Positions 7,136 to 18,546 of a stretch of 20,261 bases of DNA are shown in pieces. Positions within the stretch are counted from its first letter, which is position 1. Every line of letters begins with the position of its first letter. The notes under the pieces were generated by a model. The model ran no database searches. It was not told where the DNA came from and saw only the letters and a list, made by a program, of their open reading frames with translations. Source of the stretch: a virus; the IMG/VR virus record IMGVR_UViG_3300009159_000423, positions 1 through 20,261 of that record; one strand, written 5' to 3'. The position numbers and the translations under genes are program-made.

Positions 7136-7879
7136 TCATCCAACAAACATATCTACAGGTAATTCAAATCTTGATTGAATCTCTGTTTCAATTTGTCGTA
7201 TTTCTTCTATTGCTTCCTGATATATAATTTCACCGTTTAGTGTTACTCCTCCAGGAAGTTGTACACCTGCAAACTTCTTTAAATTGTTACCCCATTGTTT
7301 TTTAATTTGAGCAGTAGCATATCGTTTTAAGAACATATCGTTATAAACATTTGTGAATTCATCTGGATTTAATATCCTCCAACATTCTACAATAATATAT
7401 GTACCCTGGGTAACATCTGCACTCCAGTCCATATCAATCATTAACCTATTCATGTGTCTATTAAACCTTATGGGTTTTTGTCCCACAAGTATTTGATTAA
7501 TTAATTCCAATTGTTGTCTTACTGCTGTATAATAAATTAAATCTGTTGACATTAAAGTGTATAGATCATTAATTAAGATCTGATATTTAATATCGAATAT
7601 GTCACTTCCAGTAGACTTATTCATAAAGGGGAATATTCGTTCAACTCCCACAATTGCGTCGGGCAACTCTACATATTGAGCTGAAATATTGTTAGCAGTC
7701 ATCTCATGCTTTAGATAAACTTTTTCTACAGCATCAAAGTGATACTCACGATAGAATTGAAATGAATCATCAATGCGATCTTCAACTTGATCGTCATCAA
7801 CGTTTATCTCAATTACAGGGGCTCCCAATTGGCGCAAACAATAATCTTTTAATTGTTCTCTGGATGTTATGCTAGCCAT
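7136..7879 (-). CDS. gp13: Neck protein gp13
   Basis: This 247-residue protein (T4: 309, so this is shorter) should form the head-completion ring beneath the portal together with gp14. The N-terminus reads MASITSREQLKDYCLRQLGAPVIEINV, followed by DQVEDRIDDSFQFYREYHFDAVEK. This is a conserved signature of marine T4-like gp13 proteins. The later RFNRHMNRLMIDMDW and the ARITA-like C-terminal helical region (KRYATAQIKKQWGNNLKKF) also fit. Its start overlaps the stop of the 109-residue upstream gene by one base (TAATG). It is followed by a 71-base gap and then gp14, as in T4. Confidence 0.94.
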   Translation of the reverse strand: MASITSREQLKDYCLRQLGAPVIEINVDDDQVEDRIDDSFQFYREYHFDAVEKVYLKHEMTANNISAQYVELPDAIVGVERIFPFMNKSTGSDIFDIKYQILINDLYTLMSTDLIYYTAVRQQLELINQILVGQKPIRFNRHMNRLMIDMDWSADVTQGTYIIVECWRILNPDEFTNVYNDMFLKRYATAQIKKQWGNNLKKFAGVQLPGGVTLNGEIIYQEAIEEIRQIETEIQSRFELPVDMFVG

Positions 7880-8208
7880 TATCGAGTTGCTCCTGGGTTA
7901 ACTGTTACAATGCCTTCTACTATTCTTACAACAGTAGCAGCCACATTTGCTTCTATATCATATATGTATCTACCCGCAATTAAGTTTGCAGTTTGTCCGG
8001 AGGTTAACGATATTGATACGTTACCTGTTGAGGTGTTAGTAATATTTGCAGTAAATGTTGTAGCATTTGCGCTAGAATACGATCTACGCATTTGGCTTTT
8101 AACATCGTATCCTGTTAGAGAAATAGGATTTTTACTGTTGTCCAAAAATTGGACATTGGCAGTAAACGTACTACCTTGATCTATTACTAAATTTTTGGTT
8201 GTTGCCAT
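7879..8208 (-). CDS. Small beta-rich virion protein, BppU-N-like
   Basis: This 109-residue protein is probably a small virion protein, either a baseplate/fibre adaptor or a neck decoration. The N-terminus MATTKNLVIDQGSTFTANVQF, then LTGYDVKSQMRRSYSS, a Gly-Asn-Val-Ser-Ile strand, and a final GRYIYDIEAN and VRIVEGIVTVNPGATR give the strand pattern of a single beta-sandwich. I recall this pattern from small proteins of marine T4-like phages and from the N-terminal domain of siphophage baseplate upper proteins (BppU-type). It stands between the large fibre gene and gp13, exactly where T4 has fibritin (wac), but shows no coiled coil and is far shorter, so it is not fibritin. Its stop overlaps the gp13 start. 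The exact role is unknown. Confidence 0.65.
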   Translation of the reverse strand: MATTKNLVIDQGSTFTANVQFLDNSKNPISLTGYDVKSQMRRSYSSANATTFTANITNTSTGNVSISLTSGQTANLIAGRYIYDIEANVAATVVRIVEGIVTVNPGATR

Positions 8209-8211
8209 TTG

Positions 8212-11200
8212 TTATCCGCAGTGGTAAGTACAAGCAATCATCTTAACTTCTGTTGGAGATGAGAATGTAACATTTTCTCTAGATTTTGCTACAGTATAAT
8301 TGCGCATTAAATCATCGCTTTGTTTCATACCTTTACCTGGTATTGAAGATGTTACAATGTAATCGCCAATTTCAATATTTCCGTTTTCTCCGCAAACATT
8401 AATTAATCCTTCGCCTAACGCATTAATTAAACACACTTTACTATTATTATAAAGCTCCTCATATTCTGCTTTTACTTTAGATCTAACAGGTAGTTGTTCT
8501 GTAACTGAAGGATTATTATGATCTATTATATGTTCTTTAGTCACAATTTCGCTAATTTCAAAAGGTATAAACCCGGTATCTTCGCCCACATATATACCAA
8601 GAACAGCTTTTTGCATCGTTGTTGTAGATTTTGTAACAATTGATAATGCATTATTAATATCTCCGTGTATCATAGTAGGAGTATCTATAACAATATCGCC
8701 GGGTTCTATTACTTCATCTTTATTATATAAACTTCCGTGTGCGCCTGTAAAGTTTGCAGTTTGTCCGTTTGTATATACAGCACCTGCACCTGCATCAAAT
8801 ACAGTTATGCCTTTATTTACCCAAATAGCCTTACCCGCTGCTGTTCCTCCATATGAATCATCTTGAGCAAATCTAACAGAAGCTGTAGTTGGAGGAGTAT
8901 TACTTGGCCAGACTGCAGAATTTAACGCAAGACATTGGAACTGCCCTGCAAAATTACTATCACCAGTACCGGCAGTGCCCGTTCCTTGTAAATAATTTAA
9001 AAGTACTGATAATACAACTTTAGGATCACCGCCGCTCTTTGAGTATGCTGCAGTGCTTCTACTGTATCCATTAAGTGCTCCGCCTATTGTTGTTTGTGTA
9101 GATGCGGTATTAGTATAATTGGCATCTAATCCAAATGTAACACTATGGTCAGGTGGATGTTTGCCTGCCCAGACCCCACCTGTATATGATGTTAATGCAT
9201 TAATACGAGAATAGTTAGTAAAGCCTGCAGAAAATCTTCCATGTGCCAGAAGAGCTGATTGATTCCATTGTTGCGTATAATTAGAATCTCTACCCCTTAC
9301 TGCAATAAATGGTTCACATTCCCATCCTTCTACTCCATAACTTGCATCTCTTCCGTACGATGCAGAAACAACAGGTGTCGCGCATACCAATGCAGGGGAA
9401 CCGCTTTTAGATTCAAACAATCCTGCAAACACCGGAAATGCAGAACTTGAAGCTACAACAATTGCATTAGCTTGTGTTGAATTAACAGGAATTCCACCGT
9501 AACCTAATGAGAATTGATATCCTGAGGCCAAAGACGCAGTACTTTGTTTTAATTTATCTACAGTTACTGCCCCGGCTGATATCTCTGAGGCAGTAATAGC
9601 GCCTGCTGCAATTTTATCAGATGTAATGGAATCTGCAACCAATGCAGTTGCAGATATTGTGCCATTCACAAGTAATCCGCCATTAATATAAGCAGCGATT
9701 GAAGACCAAGCGCTGCCTGTCCAAAATCTTGATTCTGAGAATGAAGATGGACTTGAAGAATTATATAAAGTAACTTGATCGCGTGTAACTTTTGTTAATC
9801 CTGCAGATGAAATAGCTGCATCTGCATACCCATCATTCCATGCACCCAATCCTGCAACGCCATATGGAATTTGAACACTGCCACGAGAACCATTTGTTCC
9901 GTTGGTTCCGTTAGTACCATTAGTTCCTGCAGTACCAGCTTTTGCTTTGGATAGCTTATATACTCTTGTTTGATTAGGATATCCGGATTTAGTTGCTGTA
10001 AATGTAACTGTTGCAGTATCTGCAGACATTGCTGTTACAGAAATATTTCTTGTATTTGTACCTGTAACAGTACATCCTACTACTGCAGTTGTATACGTCC
10101 ACGTTGTACTAGTATCATTTAATCCTTCATATATTACTGCTTGTGTGGATACTCCGGAAAATGAAGATACTGTGCCGGCTGAATCTGCAACTAATGTTCT
10201 ATTCTCATCGGTTAAGTACATTACCGGTGCACCATTTGACTGGTATGTTTTATATAAACTAACTAAATCGGTATATGTTGTTCCAGAATCAACAAGTGTT
10301 GCAGTAATTGCAACCGTGTCTGTTAACATATTTGTAAAGAACAATCGTTTTGCGTTTGGATCAGATGTAGCTGTTAAAGTTGCTGTACCTGATGTGACTG
10401 TAAAAGTTGCAGTGCCAGTCATACCATAGATATTAGCAGTTAATAATATGTTAGATTGATTTGTTGGATTTCCTGCAGTATCTACTCCAAATCCTGGAGC
10501 ATTATTTTTTAAATCTAACCATTTAGGTGTAGCATTTGCTGCAAGAGTAGCTAATGCTACATTGCTAGTGCCAACTTGAACTTGTGTATTTCCTGATAAA
10601 GAAACATTATTTAAGAATCCTATTCCTAAACCAGCCGCAAATAATATGTTACCATTTAAATCTCTGATTGTCAATCCTCTTGAATCAATCATAGCAGCCG
10701 TAATTGCATTTGCAGCAACTTGTACGCCAGTAATAGAATTTGCAGCAATTGTATTAGCGGTAACTGCGCCTGCTTGAATTGCGCCTGCATATACCGCATT
10801 AGCAGCAAGTTCTACAGACGTAATTGCGTTCGCCGCAATTTCATTTGCAGTAATAACATTTGCCATTAATGCGCCAGCATAAATAGAATTTGCAGCTATT
10901 TGAATTGCTGTAATAATATTTGCGCGCAACATTCTAGTTTCAATTGAATTAGATTGAATTGCGTTTGCATATACTGCATTTGCTGCAATTTGAACTGCGG
11001 TAATTGCATTAGCGGCAATTAGATTAGCGATAATTGCGTTTGCTTCAATTTTTAAAGTTGTAATTGCGTTTGCAGCAATAGCAGTTGCGGTGATTGCACC
11101 TGCAGCAATTTCAGCAGCTGTTATAACCCCTGCATCAATTTTACCGGCAATAATTGAATTGGCTGCAATCTTATTTGCTGTAATTGCATTTGCTTGGATT

Positions 11201-12045
11201 TCAGCGGCACTAATTGCAAGTGCACCAATTTTGCCTGCAATAACAGATCCTGCTGCTAATTCTGTTGCTGTAATAATTCCTGCTGATAAAACAGGAGTGC
11301 CTGAACCAGTGATAAAACTATTGTAGGATGACCATGATCCGCTTGTTCTAATGTATAGATTACTATTATAAAATCCTTGTCTACCATCAAAGTCTCTACC
11401 ATCACCTGGGCCGCCAGGTAATGCAAAATATGTAAATATTTCAACTCCGCTAATAGAATTAGCAGTAGGAGTAAATGCTGCGCCTGGACTTATCCAAGCA
11501 TTACCGCTCCAAATATAAAGTCCGCCATTTGTAGTATTATAAACTGCTTGGCCGTTTGAAGTTCCATTAGCTGAAAGATTTGATACCAACGCCACTTTAG
11601 TATTAGAAGAACTAGCGTTAGCAGTTAAAGTATTAATTACGTTTGTAAAATTAGTTAATGATGTTACGTTAACAGTTGCAAGCGCATTGTTTAATGCATT
11701 TAAATTAACTGGTTGTACGTTTGCCAATGCATTTGCAAGAGCACTTAAATTTGTAGGTTGAATATTTGCTAACTTACCGGTTAATATGGTCAAATTACTT
11801 GTTGTAATATTACCCCATCCTTCAAACCCGCCACCGTAAAAATTTGTTACATTTGTTATGGTTACATTTCCGCCGCCATTTCCACCGGCATTTCCACCTA
11901 ACCCATTATAGTATGCTAAATTTGCGTAAGCATATACGTTTGACAAACTTTGATTTATTTTTATAAATGCGGTGCGTAACGGATCGCCTTGGCTATCGTT
12001 AGGATACGTTCCTACATTAACATTACTGATTGAATATGATGGCAT
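8212..12045 (-). CDS. Large modular tail fibre / receptor-binding protein
   Basis: This 1277-residue protein is a multidomain fibre and the best candidate for host recognition. Residues 1-45 (VGTYPNDSQGDPLRTAFIKIN) look like a virion-anchoring domain common to marine T4-like fibres. Then come a Gly/Asn-rich linker (48-60), three 15-residue repeats (92-136), and twenty 10-residue repeats (254-453). Next is DSRGLTIRDLNGNILFAAGLG (454-474), a segment typical of lambda J-type tail-tip/fibre proteins. After a Thr-rich Ig-like region (about 520-690) come a collagen-like Gly-X-Y tract (704-722), four more decapeptides (793-832) and a C-terminal globular part. The last ~190 residues (GDIVIDT..., GNIEIGDYIVTSSIPGKG) resemble the chaperone-type C-terminal domains of phage fibres, possibly peptidase G2-like; that part is a weak assignment. 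The start directly abuts the stop of the coiled-coil gene. Confidence 0.85.
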   Translation of the reverse strand: MPSYSISNVNVGTYPNDSQGDPLRTAFIKINQSLSNVYAYANLAYYNGLGGNAGGNGGGNVTITNVTNFYGGGFEGWGNITTSNLTILTGKLANIQPTNLSALANALANVQPVNLNALNNALATVNVTSLTNFTNVINTLTANASSSNTKVALVSNLSANGTSNGQAVYNTTNGGLYIWSGNAWISPGAAFTPTANSISGVEIFTYFALPGGPGDGRDFDGRQGFYNSNLYIRTSGSWSSYNSFITGSGTPVLSAGIITATELAAGSVIAGKIGALAISAAEIQANAITANKIAANSIIAGKIDAGVITAAEIAAGAITATAIAANAITTLKIEANAIIANLIAANAITAVQIAANAVYANAIQSNSIETRMLRANIITAIQIAANSIYAGALMANVITANEIAANAITSVELAANAVYAGAIQAGAVTANTIAANSITGVQVAANAITAAMIDSRGLTIRDLNGNILFAAGLGIGFLNNVSLSGNTQVQVGTSNVALATLAANATPKWLDLKNNAPGFGVDTAGNPTNQSNILLTANIYGMTGTATFTVTSGTATLTATSDPNAKRLFFTNMLTDTVAITATLVDSGTTYTDLVSLYKTYQSNGAPVMYLTDENRTLVADSAGTVSSFSGVSTQAVIYEGLNDTSTTWTYTTAVVGCTVTGTNTRNISVTAMSADTATVTFTATKSGYPNQTRVYKLSKAKAGTAGTNGTNGTNGTNGSRGSVQIPYGVAGLGAWNDGYADAAISSAGLTKVTRDQVTLYNSSSPSSFSESRFWTGSAWSSIAAYINGGLLVNGTISATALVADSITSDKIAAGAITASEISAGAVTVDKLKQSTASLASGYQFSLGYGGIPVNSTQANAIVVASSSAFPVFAGLFESKSGSPALVCATPVVSASYGRDASYGVEGWECEPFIAVRGRDSNYTQQWNQSALLAHGRFSAGFTNYSRINALTSYTGGVWAGKHPPDHSVTFGLDANYTNTASTQTTIGGALNGYSRSTAAYSKSGGDPKVVLSVLLNYLQGTGTAGTGDSNFAGQFQCLALNSAVWPSNTPPTTASVRFAQDDSYGGTAAGKAIWVNKGITVFDAGAGAVYTNGQTANFTGAHGSLYNKDEVIEPGDIVIDTPTMIHGDINNALSIVTKSTTTMQKAVLGIYVGEDTGFIPFEISEIVTKEHIIDHNNPSVTEQLPVRSKVKAEYEELYNNSKVCLINALGEGLINVCGENGNIEIGDYIVTSSIPGKGMKQSDDLMRNYTVAKSRENVTFSSPTEVKMIACTYHCG
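9550..9669 (-). repeat. Second short decapeptide array in the fibre (4 units)
   Basis: These bases encode residues 793-832 of the fibre: VNGTISATAL, VADSITSDKI, AAGAITASEI and SAGAVTVDKL. They follow the same ten-residue pattern as the main array but lie about 340 residues further on, after the collagen-like tract, and are closer to the ITADKIAAG form usual in J-type proteins. Confidence 0.85.
9880..9936 (-). repeat. Collagen-like Gly-X-Y tract in the fibre
   Basis: These bases encode residues 704-722: GTA, four GTN triplets, GSR and a closing Gly. Short collagen-like tracts act as trimeric stalk segments in many phage fibres. On the DNA level the nine-base GTN unit recurs with synonymous changes, so slippage could change its length. 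Confidence 0.85.
10687..11286 (-). repeat. Twenty tandem 10-residue repeats (30 bp each) in the fibre
   Basis: The 600 bases encode residues 254-453 as an uninterrupted series of twenty decapeptides with consensus AANAITAxxI. Examples are QANAITANKI, AANSIIAGKI, DAGVITAAEI, EANAIIANLI, AANAVYANAI and AANAITAAMI. Register is kept perfectly from the first unit (SAGIITATEL) to the last, with a hydrophobic residue at position 10 (mostly Ile) and Ala/Ile at 4-5. At the DNA level units are degenerate. Similar repeats occur in J-type and other phage fibre proteins, where they are expected to form a beta-rich trimeric shaft. Units 11 (QSNSIETRML) and 12 deviate most. Confidence 0.92.
11638..11772 (-). 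repeat. Three 15-residue repeats near the fibre N-terminus
   Basis: Residues 92-136 of the fibre fall into three consecutive units: LANIQPTNLSALANA, LANVQPVNLNALNNA and the degenerate LATVNVTSLTNFTNV. The period differs from the ten-residue shaft array downstream. The Leu-rich, Asn-rich pattern could form a triple coiled coil or beta-helical turn; I cannot decide from sequence. Confidence 0.75.
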
Positions 12046-12265: not shown

Positions 12266-14035
12266 TTAAATTACCGCCGTTGCTATTAAATTTTTAATTT
12301 TTGGTACTATTGTTGAATCAAACGAATAGAAAACAACTTTAACTTGAAATTTATTAAAATCTTTAAATGTTGTTAATGTGTCTCCTACCAACGCGGTATA
12401 ATATAGATTGTCAAATCCAGTTGTTGCTTGCGAATCTGTTTCTAAAATTTTATAAATTTCTGTAGAAAAAGTGTCTGAACTTCCTGCATATGTTTTCTTT
12501 CCCTCTATACTATCGGGAGCAGTTACGGTCGCGTCTTTATTGTATAAGGGCATTCGCTTCCATGGTAAATTATCTATACTATTATTGGTATTAATATCAG
12601 TGGAACTCATTACTCTGCAGAAAACATCTATATCAGTACCAATTTTTCTATTAACATCTATTTTTACTTCCAATCCAGTTGAATCAAATCCAGATGCAAG
12701 TGTAACTACTTTACTAATATATCGGCTATGCGCAATGCCGTTAGAAGGTAATAATTCAGCATTGCGAGTATCAACCTCATACGGATCAATTTCATTAGCA
12801 AATGTATATAATGATAATCTAGATTTATCTAATACAGGAGATACATCTAACGAATCATTTGTAAATGTTACGCCTATTTTCATATCTCCTGTTGCAACTG
12901 CTTTTTTTCGTCTATCTAATGATGTAGATTGATTAGGATTTAATCCTACTGCGCCAGCCAAATTGCCTGGGGCAGAAAATTCATTTACAGTATTAATAGT
13001 ATATGCAATACCACTTATTTCGCCTTCGCCTGTTGTTGCTGAATCTAAAAATACTGAGTCATATAGTGTGGAAGGAATTGCTTCTGTTTGCAACTCAAAA
13101 AATGCAGTACCTTTATAGAATTGCGCCTTATTTACAGCAAAACACAATGATTTATTTGATTCTTCTAACCAGGTATTTGTGTTTTGGGATTTAAATAATT
13201 TTCCAATGTATGGTTCTTTTTGTGCAATACCGGAACCACCTGGGCCAGGTTGGCCAAAAACGGAAGAATATATAGAATAATTTTTTGAATCTGTTAGAAT
13301 AGAAACTCCGTATTCTCCAGGCGGCAATTTACTTAGTATAGGAAATCTTGTGTATGTAGATGCACTTGTTAATGCTGTTGTTAGTATCGCATTCGCAGGA
13401 ACATTTACATTTGCTGCATTAACTACACAAACCGAACCAGGTATAACTTCATTTGATGATGGAACACCTCCTATAACTTTTCTTAATTGAATTGCTACCG
13501 GTGCGACATCGTCTTTTGTTGCAAACCATAATTCAACTGACGATAAAAATAACCCTTTTGGATATTTTGTGCCATCAACAAAAAATGTCTGAGTAAATGG
13601 TGTTAATAACGTTGTTACTCCTCCCAATTTTGCAGCATCGGCAACATCTGTTTCCGTTGCCGATGATTTAATTGATGATATGGTTGAACTGCTTCTAGTA
13701 CTATCTACGGAAGTATCTGGAGCAGAACTAGTACCTGCAATAGTAAATCTTGTTACGGTTGTTTGTGTTGTTGGATCATAAAAAGACACATCCAGCGATC
13801 CACCCACACCCAATCCGCCATACGTTCTTATAATTGTTATTTTACCAGATGCATGGCCTGTTCTATCAGTTACTAAACCATCTTGCACTAGCCCTGTTGA
13901 ATCAGGTGCAACTAATGGGCTATAATCAATCCCATTAATAAATGTTTGTAATTCGGTATACGGTGGCGCACCGTTAATTGTAAAATTATAAACGCCTGCA
14001 ACACCGCCTGGTGTAAAACTACTTAAAGCACTCAT
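12266..14035 (-). CDS. Adhesin-like baseplate/fibre protein
   Basis: This 589-residue protein is probably structural. The N-terminal ~105 residues (SSFTPGGVAGVYNFTINGAPPYTELQ..., then GKITIIRTYGG) look like a beta domain. A Ser/Thr-rich linker follows (about 102-130). From residue 148 comes TQTFFVDGTKYPKGLFLSSV, then ELWFATKDDVAPVAIQLRKV, LPPGEYGVSILTDS, FGQPGPGGSG and YIGKLFKSQNTNTW. That series resembles the C-terminal half of the large DUF4815-type proteins of marine T4-like phages, as I remember them, but here it is a separate gene. It lies two genes downstream of the actual DUF4815 protein. An AAGGG site lies 9 bases before the ATG. No catalytic motif, signal peptide or membrane segment is visible. 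T4 gp10/gp11-type function in the baseplate pin is possible but unproven. Confidence 0.75.
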   Translation of the reverse strand: MSALSSFTPGGVAGVYNFTINGAPPYTELQTFINGIDYSPLVAPDSTGLVQDGLVTDRTGHASGKITIIRTYGGLGVGGSLDVSFYDPTTQTTVTRFTIAGTSSAPDTSVDSTRSSSTISSIKSSATETDVADAAKLGGVTTLLTPFTQTFFVDGTKYPKGLFLSSVELWFATKDDVAPVAIQLRKVIGGVPSSNEVIPGSVCVVNAANVNVPANAILTTALTSASTYTRFPILSKLPPGEYGVSILTDSKNYSIYSSVFGQPGPGGSGIAQKEPYIGKLFKSQNTNTWLEESNKSLCFAVNKAQFYKGTAFFELQTEAIPSTLYDSVFLDSATTGEGEISGIAYTINTVNEFSAPGNLAGAVGLNPNQSTSLDRRKKAVATGDMKIGVTFTNDSLDVSPVLDKSRLSLYTFANEIDPYEVDTRNAELLPSNGIAHSRYISKVVTLASGFDSTGLEVKIDVNRKIGTDIDVFCRVMSSTDINTNNSIDNLPWKRMPLYNKDATVTAPDSIEGKKTYAGSSDTFSTEIYKILETDSQATTGFDNLYYTALVGDTLTTFKDFNKFQVKVVFYSFDSTIVPKIKNLIATAVI

Positions 14036-14649: not shown

Positions 14650-17600
14650 TTAAATTCCTTTAATTTTTCTTAAGGTTTCATATTTTGCATAATCTACCAT
14701 ATAATACCCAGATTTATGAATTTTAACAGCATCCGCATATTGTGTGTTTAATAATTCATTTGCCATTGCTCCGGAATATTGATGCGTCTTATCCCACACA
14801 TAATTAAATGTATAGACATTTATACCATCTATTTCGCCAACTTTGTTTATATTTTCTTTTACCCGAACATCACTAAAAAAGAATGCAAATATTTCAGCAC
14901 CAACTGCTATTACACTTTCCCATAATGTAGTTTCTGCAACAATTGCCAGACCTTCCGCCGCAGCAACTTCTATTGCATAATCTACTGCTGCATCTGTTAA
15001 CAGTGTTTCCACACCAATGCCGCTTAAGGCTGCCAAATCTGAACCAATTACACCTACTGCTTGTTCTGATAAAACACCTTCAATGTAGCCTGCGGCCAAA
15101 TCTGCTGTTGCAGCTGATGTCGATGAACTCCACGCATACGCTCCAGCGGCAGCTAAAGCTAATGGGAAAATAGAAGAACTTCCCGAACTTTGTAAAGTTC
15201 CGCTAGGATTAACTTGAGTAAATCCGGTAGGCACAGTTTGTCCTGTAATTACTTGTTCGTCATATGGCATAGTAATTAAATCATCTCTATAACTAACGTC
15301 TGGATCGGATATAAAAAATAATTTATGTTGAACTGCAGAAACGGCGGGTCTGCATTCTTTTTTAACGGTATTAATTGTTGCAGTAAACCCCGGACTTGTA
15401 GTTAATGATGCAGAATGATTACTAAAATCTTCAACAAAAATACCGGTAGTATATAGCACATTGCCTTGAATTCCATCTCGATCAAATACCTTATTATTTA
15501 ATGCAGCAATGTCAATCCCTTGACGCTTTACTCGTTTTTCTAAGGCAGTTAATCTAGAATCAATACTACCAATATTTTTCATAGTATATCTTGAGTAATC
15601 CGAATATCTTACTTTAACATCGCTTGCCGAGGCAGTATAAGGTGGAGAAATCAAAGTTGCTATCAATTGTTGTGTTCTATCAGATTTATCAGCTGGAGCT
15701 TTGGGAGAAACTGCGGAGGTTCCAATATCTAATCTAAATTTATTACCAATCTGTCTAGGATTCACATCTGTTGTTTGCGCATATACTCGATCTATTCTTG
15801 GTAAATAATATGATAAATCAACCTGTGTTCCTGGCACGTTAAATGGATCGGGTCTAGAAACAATCGTTGTTGTATATGAGTCACCTACACTAGGATCATA
15901 TGCAATTCTTGCTGGTCTAAAATCTAAACAATCTCGTAAATTAAATGTTGAAGCATCTTCTATAGATTTATAGGTTGGAATAGTAGAATATAACGTATTA
16001 GCATAAGAATTTACTGTAAACGGGCCGGTACCTCCACCATGCGTAAAATAATCTACAATAGCAACAACATATCCCACATTTGCAGCATTTTGTCCTAAAT
16101 ATTTTATTCTACCCCAGTCATAAACAAAATCTCGTTGGCCATCATCTAAACTATATAATAGTAAAGGTTCGGGAGTAAGTCTTGTCCATGAATCAGTATT
16201 ACTTACCCCTTGATTAGTTGTTGCAAGCGCACGATATGCTTTATCATCATTTGTAACAATTTTTCCTGTAGTATATGTGTTGCCAGAAACATATTTGCCC
16301 GCCCAATCTGTAGGGTATACTGCAGTATTAAATTTATATACTGCCTTTAATGCTGTTATATCAGAATTTAATAAATTAACCCACCCACTAGAATTAATAT
16401 TTGCAAGAAATGGAGTATTTTGAACCAACGTTTTTGTTCTTATTACTTCCTCGTTATTTTGTAATGTTGCTATAATATCTAATTTTGCAATTACTTGACT
16501 ATTAGCATACGTAATAGTCATGTTCGTTTTATTCACATCTAAATCAAATGATAGATTAGTAGAATCTACAAACGCTCCACTATAATAATTACCAATTCCG
16601 GAGGTAGTATCTATTTTTTCTTTAACCACAACAGTATAATATTGCTGTGAAAAATAAGTAGATAGCGTTGCGCCAGCAGTTCCAACAAACTTGTTAGGGG
16701 AAGATGTTGTAATTGTAGCAACTCCTCCGGTCATAGAAACATTTGAATATAATTTTTGATATACGGTGTTTATATTAGTGACATCTTTTACATATGATTT
16801 GCCAACCGGGAACACATATCGACTAGGTCGTTCCCACTCGTAAAAAACAATTTTATTATCTACTACTGCGCCTGCATTTGTTGCAATGTTTGCAAAGAAA
16901 AGAGGTGCCGCATATGTTCCGCCGTTACCACCAAGTGTAGTATAACTATTCTGGACACTAATAATTGAACGAATTGAATCAACATTTGATGTTAAACTGG
17001 TATGTTCATAGTTAAACCAATAAAATTTATAAACAGCTTCAAATCCTGATCCGGAATGATATTTAATGAATTTAGGAGAAATATAACCAACTTTAGTATT
17101 TGCAGACATTGCATTTCTATTAGTTGTGTTATGGCATTCCCAATAATCTTTTATTGTAAATTGTTCAGGATTATATAAACCAAATGTGGGTGAATTTATT
17201 AAAGTATATCTACCAAAATATGAATCTACGTCCGTCTCTGGGAGAGATTCAAAATCTCGTGCCTTTGGCACTAATAATTCAGTTTTATCAGATGTTTTGA
17301 TCTGATATCCGCCGATATATGCCTTGCCTTTACTAACAAAAAATCTATTGTTTAATCCTGAAGTAGTTGTTCCGGCAGGAGTTAATTTAAAGGGGTCTAT
17401 ACTATAGTTACCGGATTCATCATATGTTCTTTCTGCAAGTTTATCCGAAAGAGCAGAATATGTTGTATCAACCGCTGAATAGTTTAATAAAGTTTTTCCG
17501 TCAATAAATCTTGCAAGCTCAATAAAATTATCAGTTACATCTGCTTTGAGGTAAGTATCTAAATCTACAGTATCCAGCGTTAAAGTAATTTTTAATCTGT

Positions 17601-18546
17601 CTGCACCTGGAGCAAGATAGTTTGAGCTCCCAAAAGCTGGATCTAACAAACTAGAATCATCGTTATAATTTACTGCAGATTCATCATATCTATAAATTAC
17701 TGATTTTTTATCGGGATAAGGTGCATATTTTTGAGGTACTATTGATTGCTCTGCAACATTTATAAAAAATCCATTTTTATAATAAATACCTGCAGATGCA
17801 TGCAATACGCCGGTAGTACTAGAACCTTTTCTCTTAAATTGTAAAGAAATGTTAGTTCCGGTTGTTTCAATATTTTCATTTAATCTTACGCTAGTTGCAG
17901 ATACAACTTCAATCACATAAAGCGGAGATGTTGTAACCCCCTCAACCGCATATAGTTCGTCCCCTACTTTTAATGGAGCAGAGGCAGATATACCCGTAAT
18001 TGTTTCTGAATATTCATCCGTTGTTCCAGTAGTTGATATAAAAATGTCGGCTGCTAATGTTTCCGTACCAACATAAATGTTGGATTTTGTTTCTGCCAAA
18101 TCTATATCGGAATAAAAATATAAAGTTTCTCCGGATAAAAATTCACCGGTTCCTTTTAATGGTCTAAAAACTACAGTGTGAGGGTCACCTATTGTGGGAA
18201 TATCAACATTAAATGCGAATTCAACTTTTCCATAAGTATTAGACACTGCGCCGGTTACATACTTTCCCAAATATGTGTCTATACTTGCAATGTTTAATCC
18301 TGCTAGTTTAAGTGCTTTATGTTTATCATTTGTTATTGTTATTGCACTTGGATCTTCTTTTGACGCTCTAGTGCCATCCACAAAAATGTGATTTGCAAAT
18401 GATTTAATTTGATTTTGCAGGATAGTTTGAAGTTGTGTCAATTCCCTTGCTTGTACAGGAACGCCTGGTTTAAAAAGAATTCTATAAAAATTCTTTGTAA
18501 CATCAAAGTCATCATAATAAGGAGAAGTTGTTAAATTTACACTCAT
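14650..18546 (-). CDS. DUF4815-type baseplate/fibre protein with S74-like C-terminal chaperone
   Basis: This 1298-residue protein belongs to the DUF4815-type structural proteins of marine T4-like phages. The N-terminus has YYDDFDVTKNFYRILFKPG followed by VPVQARELTQLQTILQNQI (29-47), the family hallmark, then HIFVDGT. A coiled-coil SRLTALEKRVKRQGIDIAAL and GIFVEDFSNH lie in the C-terminal third, followed by an Ala-rich hydrophobic stretch (about 1140-1220). The last 74 residues begin SDVRVKENI (Ser1225) and continue DGINVYTFNY, YSGAMANEL, YADAV and YYMVDYAKYETL. This matches the peptidase S74 / endosialidase-type intramolecular chaperone, which folds trimeric fibres and cleaves itself just before that Ser. 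It occupies the T4 gp9-gp10 position directly after gp8. AGGA lies 8 bases before the ATG. Confidence 0.85.
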   Translation of the reverse strand: MSVNLTTSPYYDDFDVTKNFYRILFKPGVPVQARELTQLQTILQNQIKSFANHIFVDGTRASKEDPSAITITNDKHKALKLAGLNIASIDTYLGKYVTGAVSNTYGKVEFAFNVDIPTIGDPHTVVFRPLKGTGEFLSGETLYFYSDIDLAETKSNIYVGTETLAADIFISTTGTTDEYSETITGISASAPLKVGDELYAVEGVTTSPLYVIEVVSATSVRLNENIETTGTNISLQFKRKGSSTTGVLHASAGIYYKNGFFINVAEQSIVPQKYAPYPDKKSVIYRYDESAVNYNDDSSLLDPAFGSSNYLAPGADRLKITLTLDTVDLDTYLKADVTDNFIELARFIDGKTLLNYSAVDTTYSALSDKLAERTYDESGNYSIDPFKLTPAGTTTSGLNNRFFVSKGKAYIGGYQIKTSDKTELLVPKARDFESLPETDVDSYFGRYTLINSPTFGLYNPEQFTIKDYWECHNTTNRNAMSANTKVGYISPKFIKYHSGSGFEAVYKFYWFNYEHTSLTSNVDSIRSIISVQNSYTTLGGNGGTYAAPLFFANIATNAGAVVDNKIVFYEWERPSRYVFPVGKSYVKDVTNINTVYQKLYSNVSMTGGVATITTSSPNKFVGTAGATLSTYFSQQYYTVVVKEKIDTTSGIGNYYSGAFVDSTNLSFDLDVNKTNMTITYANSQVIAKLDIIATLQNNEEVIRTKTLVQNTPFLANINSSGWVNLLNSDITALKAVYKFNTAVYPTDWAGKYVSGNTYTTGKIVTNDDKAYRALATTNQGVSNTDSWTRLTPEPLLLYSLDDGQRDFVYDWGRIKYLGQNAANVGYVVAIVDYFTHGGGTGPFTVNSYANTLYSTIPTYKSIEDASTFNLRDCLDFRPARIAYDPSVGDSYTTTIVSRPDPFNVPGTQVDLSYYLPRIDRVYAQTTDVNPRQIGNKFRLDIGTSAVSPKAPADKSDRTQQLIATLISPPYTASASDVKVRYSDYSRYTMKNIGSIDSRLTALEKRVKRQGIDIAALNNKVFDRDGIQGNVLYTTGIFVEDFSNHSASLTTSPGFTATINTVKKECRPAVSAVQHKLFFISDPDVSYRDDLITMPYDEQVITGQTVPTGFTQVNPSGTLQSSGSSSIFPLALAAAGAYAWSSSTSAATADLAAGYIEGVLSEQAVGVIGSDLAALSGIGVETLLTDAAVDYAIEVAAAEGLAIVAETTLWESVIAVGAEIFAFFFSDVRVKENINKVGEIDGINVYTFNYVWDKTHQYSGAMANELLNTQYADAVKIHKSGYYMVDYAKYETLRKIKGI
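14653..14874 (-). other. S74-like intramolecular chaperone domain, predicted self-cleavage site
   Basis: This segment encodes residues 1225-1298 of the DUF4815-type protein. SDxRxKENI at its start, GAMANE in the middle and the final VDYAKYETL are the visible landmarks of the family. In characterised members such as the endosialidase tailspikes, cleavage occurs on the N-terminal side of the Ser in the SD.R.K motif; here that would be between F1224 and S1225 (codon 14872-14874). At 74 residues it is at the short end for such domains. Whether it cleaves cannot be told from sequence. Confidence 0.7.

Follow-up and report, generated by a model that had tools for sequence, protein, structure and literature searches.

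A phased decapeptide array as the probable shaft of a fibre in an uncultured T4-like phage

Tandem arrays of ten-residue units are widespread in phage tail proteins, and the closest described counterparts of the array considered here are those of J proteins (ITADKI-type; DSS3_VP1 J at our locus L086 and the J protein of locus L065), which share with it a ten-residue register, alanine at positions 2 and 7 and isoleucine, valine or leucine at positions 5 and 10. In the straight fibre pb4 of phage T5 (PDB 7zqb, 7zlv and 8hre) the distal spike is described as a trimeric beta-sheet prism (PMC10038345). A short array of about four decapeptides, like the units described below, is present in PDB 9eg4 chain H, 'orf16' (residues 87-136), for which no paper was found. 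The subject of this report is a fibre protein of an uncultured T4-like phage, encoded on IMG/VR record IMGVR_UViG_3300009159_000423, a stretch of 20,261 bases referred to throughout as the window. Its long decapeptide array is a variant of a known building block; new here are a 30-residue aromatic super-period and the near-strict variation in length by whole units within a fibre family. No description of ten-residue repeats in tail fibres was found in a narrow search of the open-licence literature. We put at roughly 70% the probability that the array forms the shaft of a fibre which is attached to the baseplate, is probably a homotrimer, changes length by whole units and combines a conserved base and C-terminus with a variable head. 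In favour of this stand the 20-unit register, the registers of all ten homologous fibres, anchor distances in multiples of ten, the aromatic spacing and the codon background, together with homology to the PB4_spike family, the adjoining LtfC-like gene and a head far less conserved than the array.

The gene, the array and the segments on either side of it are laid out as follows, with identities to the nine relatives introduced below.

8212..12045, minus strand: fibre protein gene, 1277 amino acids (open reading frame (ORF) with homologues in viral contigs)
11287..12045, minus strand: N-terminal part, residues 1-253 (50-82% identity to eight of nine relatives)
10687..11286, minus strand: array 1, twenty decapeptides, residues 254-453 (repeat analysis)
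10717..10986, minus strand: three 30-residue super-repeats (Y-unit, Q-unit, V-unit), residues 354-443
10648..10686, minus strand: DSRGLTIRDLNGN segment, residues 454-466 (J-protein counterpart in L065)

Residues 254-453 (nucleotides 11286-10687) divide into exactly twenty ten-residue units with zero indels, as the first-pass annotation had claimed; 20 consecutive pattern-matching units compare with at most 3 in 2000 residue shuffles, and DSRGLTIRDLNGN directly abuts the array end, again as claimed. Alanine occupies column 2 in 19 of the 20 units and column 7 in 16, while isoleucine or valine at column 5 and isoleucine, leucine or valine at column 10 are found in all 20. The motif AANAITAxxI holds as a consensus but is not fitted by every unit (unit 3 is GALAISAAEI, unit 12 QSNSIETRML), and the units are degenerate, with a mean pairwise identity of 46%. 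Autocorrelation is 0.36 at lag 5 and 0.43 at lag 10, against a maximum of 0.26 over 1000 shuffles; since lag 5 is already strong, the basic period is five and each decapeptide comprises two IxAxx pentads. The strongest lag among 1-40 is 30 (0.535).

Relatives were drawn from three scans of viral contigs; one scan turned up relatives in 116 of its 154 candidate stretches, of which the best 80 were kept, corresponding to 76 distinct loci. Nine further distinct fibres in which the array reaches the C-terminal anchor were picked by hand after removal of duplicates and cut copies. Set aside were duplicates of kept arrays (L003, L005, L007, L011, L013, L015, L016, L017 and L018; L002 is the window itself), copies cut by contig ends (L020, L021, L022, L027 and L028), L019, which has array 2 only, and proteins with other backbones (L009, L010, L034, L035, L039 and L065); L023 was kept despite its cut N-terminus. 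Counted up to the C-terminal anchor, there are 20 in-register units in the window, L001, L004 and L008, 24 in L014, 26 in L012 and L023, 27 in L006, 30 in L030 and 32 in L024, so that unit number varies between related phages as a shaft had been expected to show. Each of the ten arrays keeps one single register over its 20-32 units. The distance from the N-terminal to the C-terminal anchor is a multiple of ten in nine of the ten fibres, but it is 271 in L012, where one extra residue lies near the array start. The unit filter demanded hydrophobic residues at positions 5 and 10, and the conservation of these two columns in the relatives is therefore partly by construction.

A 30-residue super-period, in which a tyrosine unit recurs at each third repeat, was missed in the first-pass annotation. 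Lag 30 is the highest tested lag in nine of ten arrays, L023 preferring 40, and the lag-3-unit statistic was reached by 7 of 2000 unit-order shuffles for the window, by 1 for L001 and 84 for L023, and by none of 2000 for each of L004, L006, L008, L012, L014, L024 and L030. Units with tyrosine or phenylalanine at position 6 are spaced exactly three decapeptides apart in 29 of 36 intervals, a count as high occurring in 0 of 2000 shuffles; the remaining intervals are two of 2, four of 4 and one of 6 units. The consensus triplet reads AAN[SA][VI]YA[NG]A[IL] / QANAITANxI / AANAITAVxL. Among array proteins with other backbones, lag 30 is the top lag in L009 and in the short array of L028. As a general rule for decapeptide arrays the period was rejected, other lags being higher in the longer arrays of L086-L089.

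The regularity had initially been ascribed to selection on the protein pattern rather than to recent duplication. For the window this stands: when codons are permuted within residue across the whole array, the identity of codons at identical residues is 0.55, 0.55 and 0.56 at lags of one, two and three units, against an observed 0.56, 0.58 and 0.58, which led us to reject recent tandem DNA duplication within the window. Among the relatives, blocks do appear to have been duplicated or exchanged. Pooled over the ten arrays, codon identity is 0.554 at lag 3 and 0.495-0.544 at other lags, and there is some duplication signal in the relatives because lag-3 codon identity exceeds background in L014 (2 of 500 permutations) and L008 (13 of 500). 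Two of the L006 repeats, those that start at units 12 and 18, have 23 of 28 codons in common, and the middle copy (unit 15) shares fewer codons with these neighbours (17/29 and 16/29) than with the copies of L012 (21/30), L001 (20/28) and the window (19/27), a pattern that fits block duplication and exchange between related arrays. A separate observation concerns window positions 10918-10956, encoding QSNSI[ED]TRMLRAN with near-constant nucleotides (AGAATGTTGCG), one copy per phage, which recur in L001, L004, L006 and L012; other copies of this stretch use different codons, and it is a possible recombination point.

A domain of T5 pb4 type follows further along the fibre, where PF24168 (PB4_spike) scores 52.6 bits against a cut-off of 27 (E 4.6e-14). 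The distal spike domain is what the window fibre has in common with pb4, and the whole proteins are not homologous: the significant phmmer alignment is confined to residues 706-817, the N-terminal FNIII domains of pb4 have no significant phmmer counterpart in the window fibre, and its long array is unmatched in pb4.

With J proteins the kinship lies in the array and in what follows it. L065 encodes a genuine J protein (FNIII-A_GpJ E 2e-43, Phage-tail_3 E 7e-21) in which decapeptide runs, broken by an out-of-register insertion, are followed by DTRGLDIKAPDGTVI (DTRGLDIK) at the place of DSRGLTIRDLNGN and by the NVCGEN C-terminal domain. This bears out in part the earlier view of DSRGLTIRDLNGN as a J-type segment, but the segment alone is weak in phage BLAST (E 0.09-0.4) and no [ST]RGL-type segment is present in the 22 residues after the arrays of L086-L091, so it does not define the whole group of J-type arrays. 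The end of the array matches DSS3_VP1 J (64% over 42 residues, E 3e-4), and matches to J-annotated proteins are limited to the last 45 residues of the array, probably owing to the BLAST low-complexity filter. The window fibre has the in-register tandem units, hydrophobic residues at 5 and 10 and small residues at 2 and 7 of a J-type array; it differs from J proteins in being without the J core domains (no Pfam match to FNIII-A_GpJ or Phage-tail_3 at E<=1), in lying between baseplate and neck genes, and in its 30-residue super-period. In Colwellia phage 9A J, decapeptides never run to three or more in a row, so that among the parts tested the C-terminal domain (36.5%, E 4e-23) is all that it shares with the window fibre. 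The description of the array as a siphophage tail-tip module captures the modules that the window fibre shares with J and pb4 proteins but is too narrow a label, since arrays of this kind are likewise found in tail proteins of other phages, among them an Alteromonas phage with annotated baseplate genes and a Marinitoga phage. In Arthrobacter phage Mimi (L087) the minor tail protein carries arrays of 52, 27 and 39 decapeptides in a single 12.8-kb gene.

That the array arose independently of those of J proteins, its likeness to them being convergent, is unlikely. The array profile also matches the repeats of IcmE/DotG (E 1e-4), which means that composition alone can yield weak matches; IcmE/DotG too has ten-residue repeats, but it is a secretion-system protein whose match falls in a low-complexity region, and it was rejected as a relative, the resemblance being probably convergent, or else compositional. 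Against convergence stand the L065 J protein, which unites decapeptides, the TRGL segment and a C-terminal domain like that of the window fibre, and the level of identity to DSS3_VP1 J. Two other explanations concern the fold. A single-chain beta-solenoid of the pentapeptide type, with no trimeric rod, would agree with the true period of five and its alternation of large and small residues; yet pentapeptide repeats have the order A-x-L, the reverse of the I-x-A found here, no pentapeptide-repeat family matches any of the 10 array proteins, and no solenoid forms in the single-chain model, all of which makes this the least probable of the alternatives. Nearly as improbable is a flexible low-complexity linker without a fixed fold, its regularity left by a slippage-like history of duplication. 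The alanine/asparagine-rich composition of array 1, the low confidence of its structural model and the apparent duplication of 30- or 60-residue blocks in L006 would suit such a linker, but neutral duplication fails to account for the period, because window codons are at background while residues are conserved, and the register persists throughout the homologous arrays (columns 5 and 10 partly through the filter).

The reading of the array as a trimeric shaft has points against it as well. In a single-chain AlphaFold model of residues 153-545 (10 sequences; mean predicted local distance difference test score (pLDDT) 46.5), pLDDT across the array was about 27-38; the model showed some helix and lent no support to a beta-rod, though it speaks neither for nor against one, a single chain being ill suited to testing an obligate trimer. 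PDB searches found no solved structure spanning a long array, and the PB4_spike family is matched at E<=0.001 in two of six fibres scanned (the window and L024, not L006, L008, L012 or L030). The super-period statistics are not ten independent tests, because the ten arrays share ancestry, and the 30-residue period is not required by the fold, because other lags outrank it in the longer J-type arrays examined. When short typed consensus strings were compared with solved chains, the one chain with about four decapeptides to emerge was PDB 9eg4 chain H (E 4.7e-4 and 2.3e-5), to which the L001 stretch gave E 0.14 and the window fibre has no further significant match; pentatricopeptide matches in the solved-structure search were set aside as chance (best E 0.12). 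Among family models, none in Pfam scored above cut-off on the array in the 10 array proteins, PF25296 (Decapeptide repeat region) matching one of them at E 0.48, and no NCBIfam model did so in three fibres scanned.

If the array is indeed a fibre shaft, each unit would contribute two IxAxx half-units whose large isoleucine, valine or leucine and small alanine pack in the fibre core. The protein would run from a conserved base through the shaft, an immunoglobulin-like part, the trimeric spike of pb4 type, which has a second short shaft, and the variable head to the conserved C-terminal domain. Attachment to the baseplate, the trimer and the rod shape are putative, and so is the role of the shaft in setting how far the variable head stands from the baseplate. 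Length would change in steps of entire decapeptides, frequently about three at a time, as blocks are duplicated and related arrays exchange them, with the register maintained by purifying selection; the L012 array, with one unit bearing an extra residue, would be the exception. A more speculative and rather doubtful extension is a quantised molecular ruler, in which a new 30-residue structural repeat has every third unit's aromatic residue marking one turn or face of the trimeric rod, reach being tuned by blocks while the head diversifies separately. If the shaft does lengthen in whole units, the 20-32-unit fibres, which have a common backbone, form a natural series that allows a direct comparison of shaft length and receptor reach. 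The locus is also a documented case in which a fibre from the baseplate region of a T4-like phage shares modules with J proteins and with a spike of pb4 type.

The remaining parts of the fibre, and the gene directly downstream, are the following.

9880..9936, minus strand: short collagen-like Gxx stretch (GTNGTNG), residues 704-722 (read from sequence)
9607..9924, minus strand: T5 pb4-type spike domain, residues 708-813 (PF24168; PDB 8hre/7zlv E 7e-13)
9550..9669, minus strand: array 2, four decapeptides, residues 793-832
8791..9546, minus strand: variable head, residues 834-1085 (17-38% identity to nine relatives)
8215..8790, minus strand: conserved C-terminal domain, residues 1086-1277 (47-64% identity to nine relatives)
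7879..8208, minus strand: LtfC-like (tail fibre assembly) gene, 109 amino acids (phrog_1084 E 3e-27; phrog_3304 'L-shaped tail fiber protein assembly' E 1e-22)

The array itself is 60-85% identical to the nine relatives, and such conservation of the shaft beside variability of the distal part would fit a receptor-binding fibre. The N-terminal part, probably the attachment end, is 26% identical to that of the ninth relative, L023, which is truncated by a contig end. Array 2 overlaps the end of the spike domain and is one unit longer in L001 than in the window, and a period-9 tandem repeat at 9896-9927 lies within the collagen-like stretch. Residues 611-702 (9940-10215) match Bacillus phages 2S-4, PJN02 and FADO at 42% (E 5e-8) and appear to be a piece common to phages of unrelated hosts. 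The C-terminal domain terminates 64 distinct ORFs among the loci examined. No Pfam family scored above cut-off on it, and its model (mean pLDDT 71.7) had no PDB fold match at E<=0.001; against viral models the top match, at E 2e-10 but a high root-mean-square deviation, was a tail protein of Colwellia phage 9A, and the matches include proteins of algal giant viruses (Pyramimonas orientalis virus, E 3.5e-6; Tetraselmis virus 1, E 1e-5) at low template-modelling scores.

Protein family matches place the fibre gene in a minus-strand T4-like late gene block, in the order gp8-like baseplate wedge, DUF4815 protein, two further ORFs, fibre gene and LtfC-like gene, followed by connector, sheath stabiliser, terminase, sheath and tube genes; this neck and tail neighbourhood is of T4-like type, in agreement with the setting first assigned to the locus. 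The LtfC-like protein scores 22.4 bits with PF23926, under the 27-bit cut-off, and its ORF has a near-identical counterpart in L001 at 9514-9843. The ORF at 14650-18546 has, at residues 1208-1288, a C-terminus like that of chaperone-of-endosialidase (S74) ends (phrog_6121 E 2e-14; PF13884 E 0.061, below cut-off). It and the ORF at 12266-14035 match a single large family of 2056 positions, phrog_358, each in a different part, which suggests that a large baseplate protein is divided into separate genes in the window.

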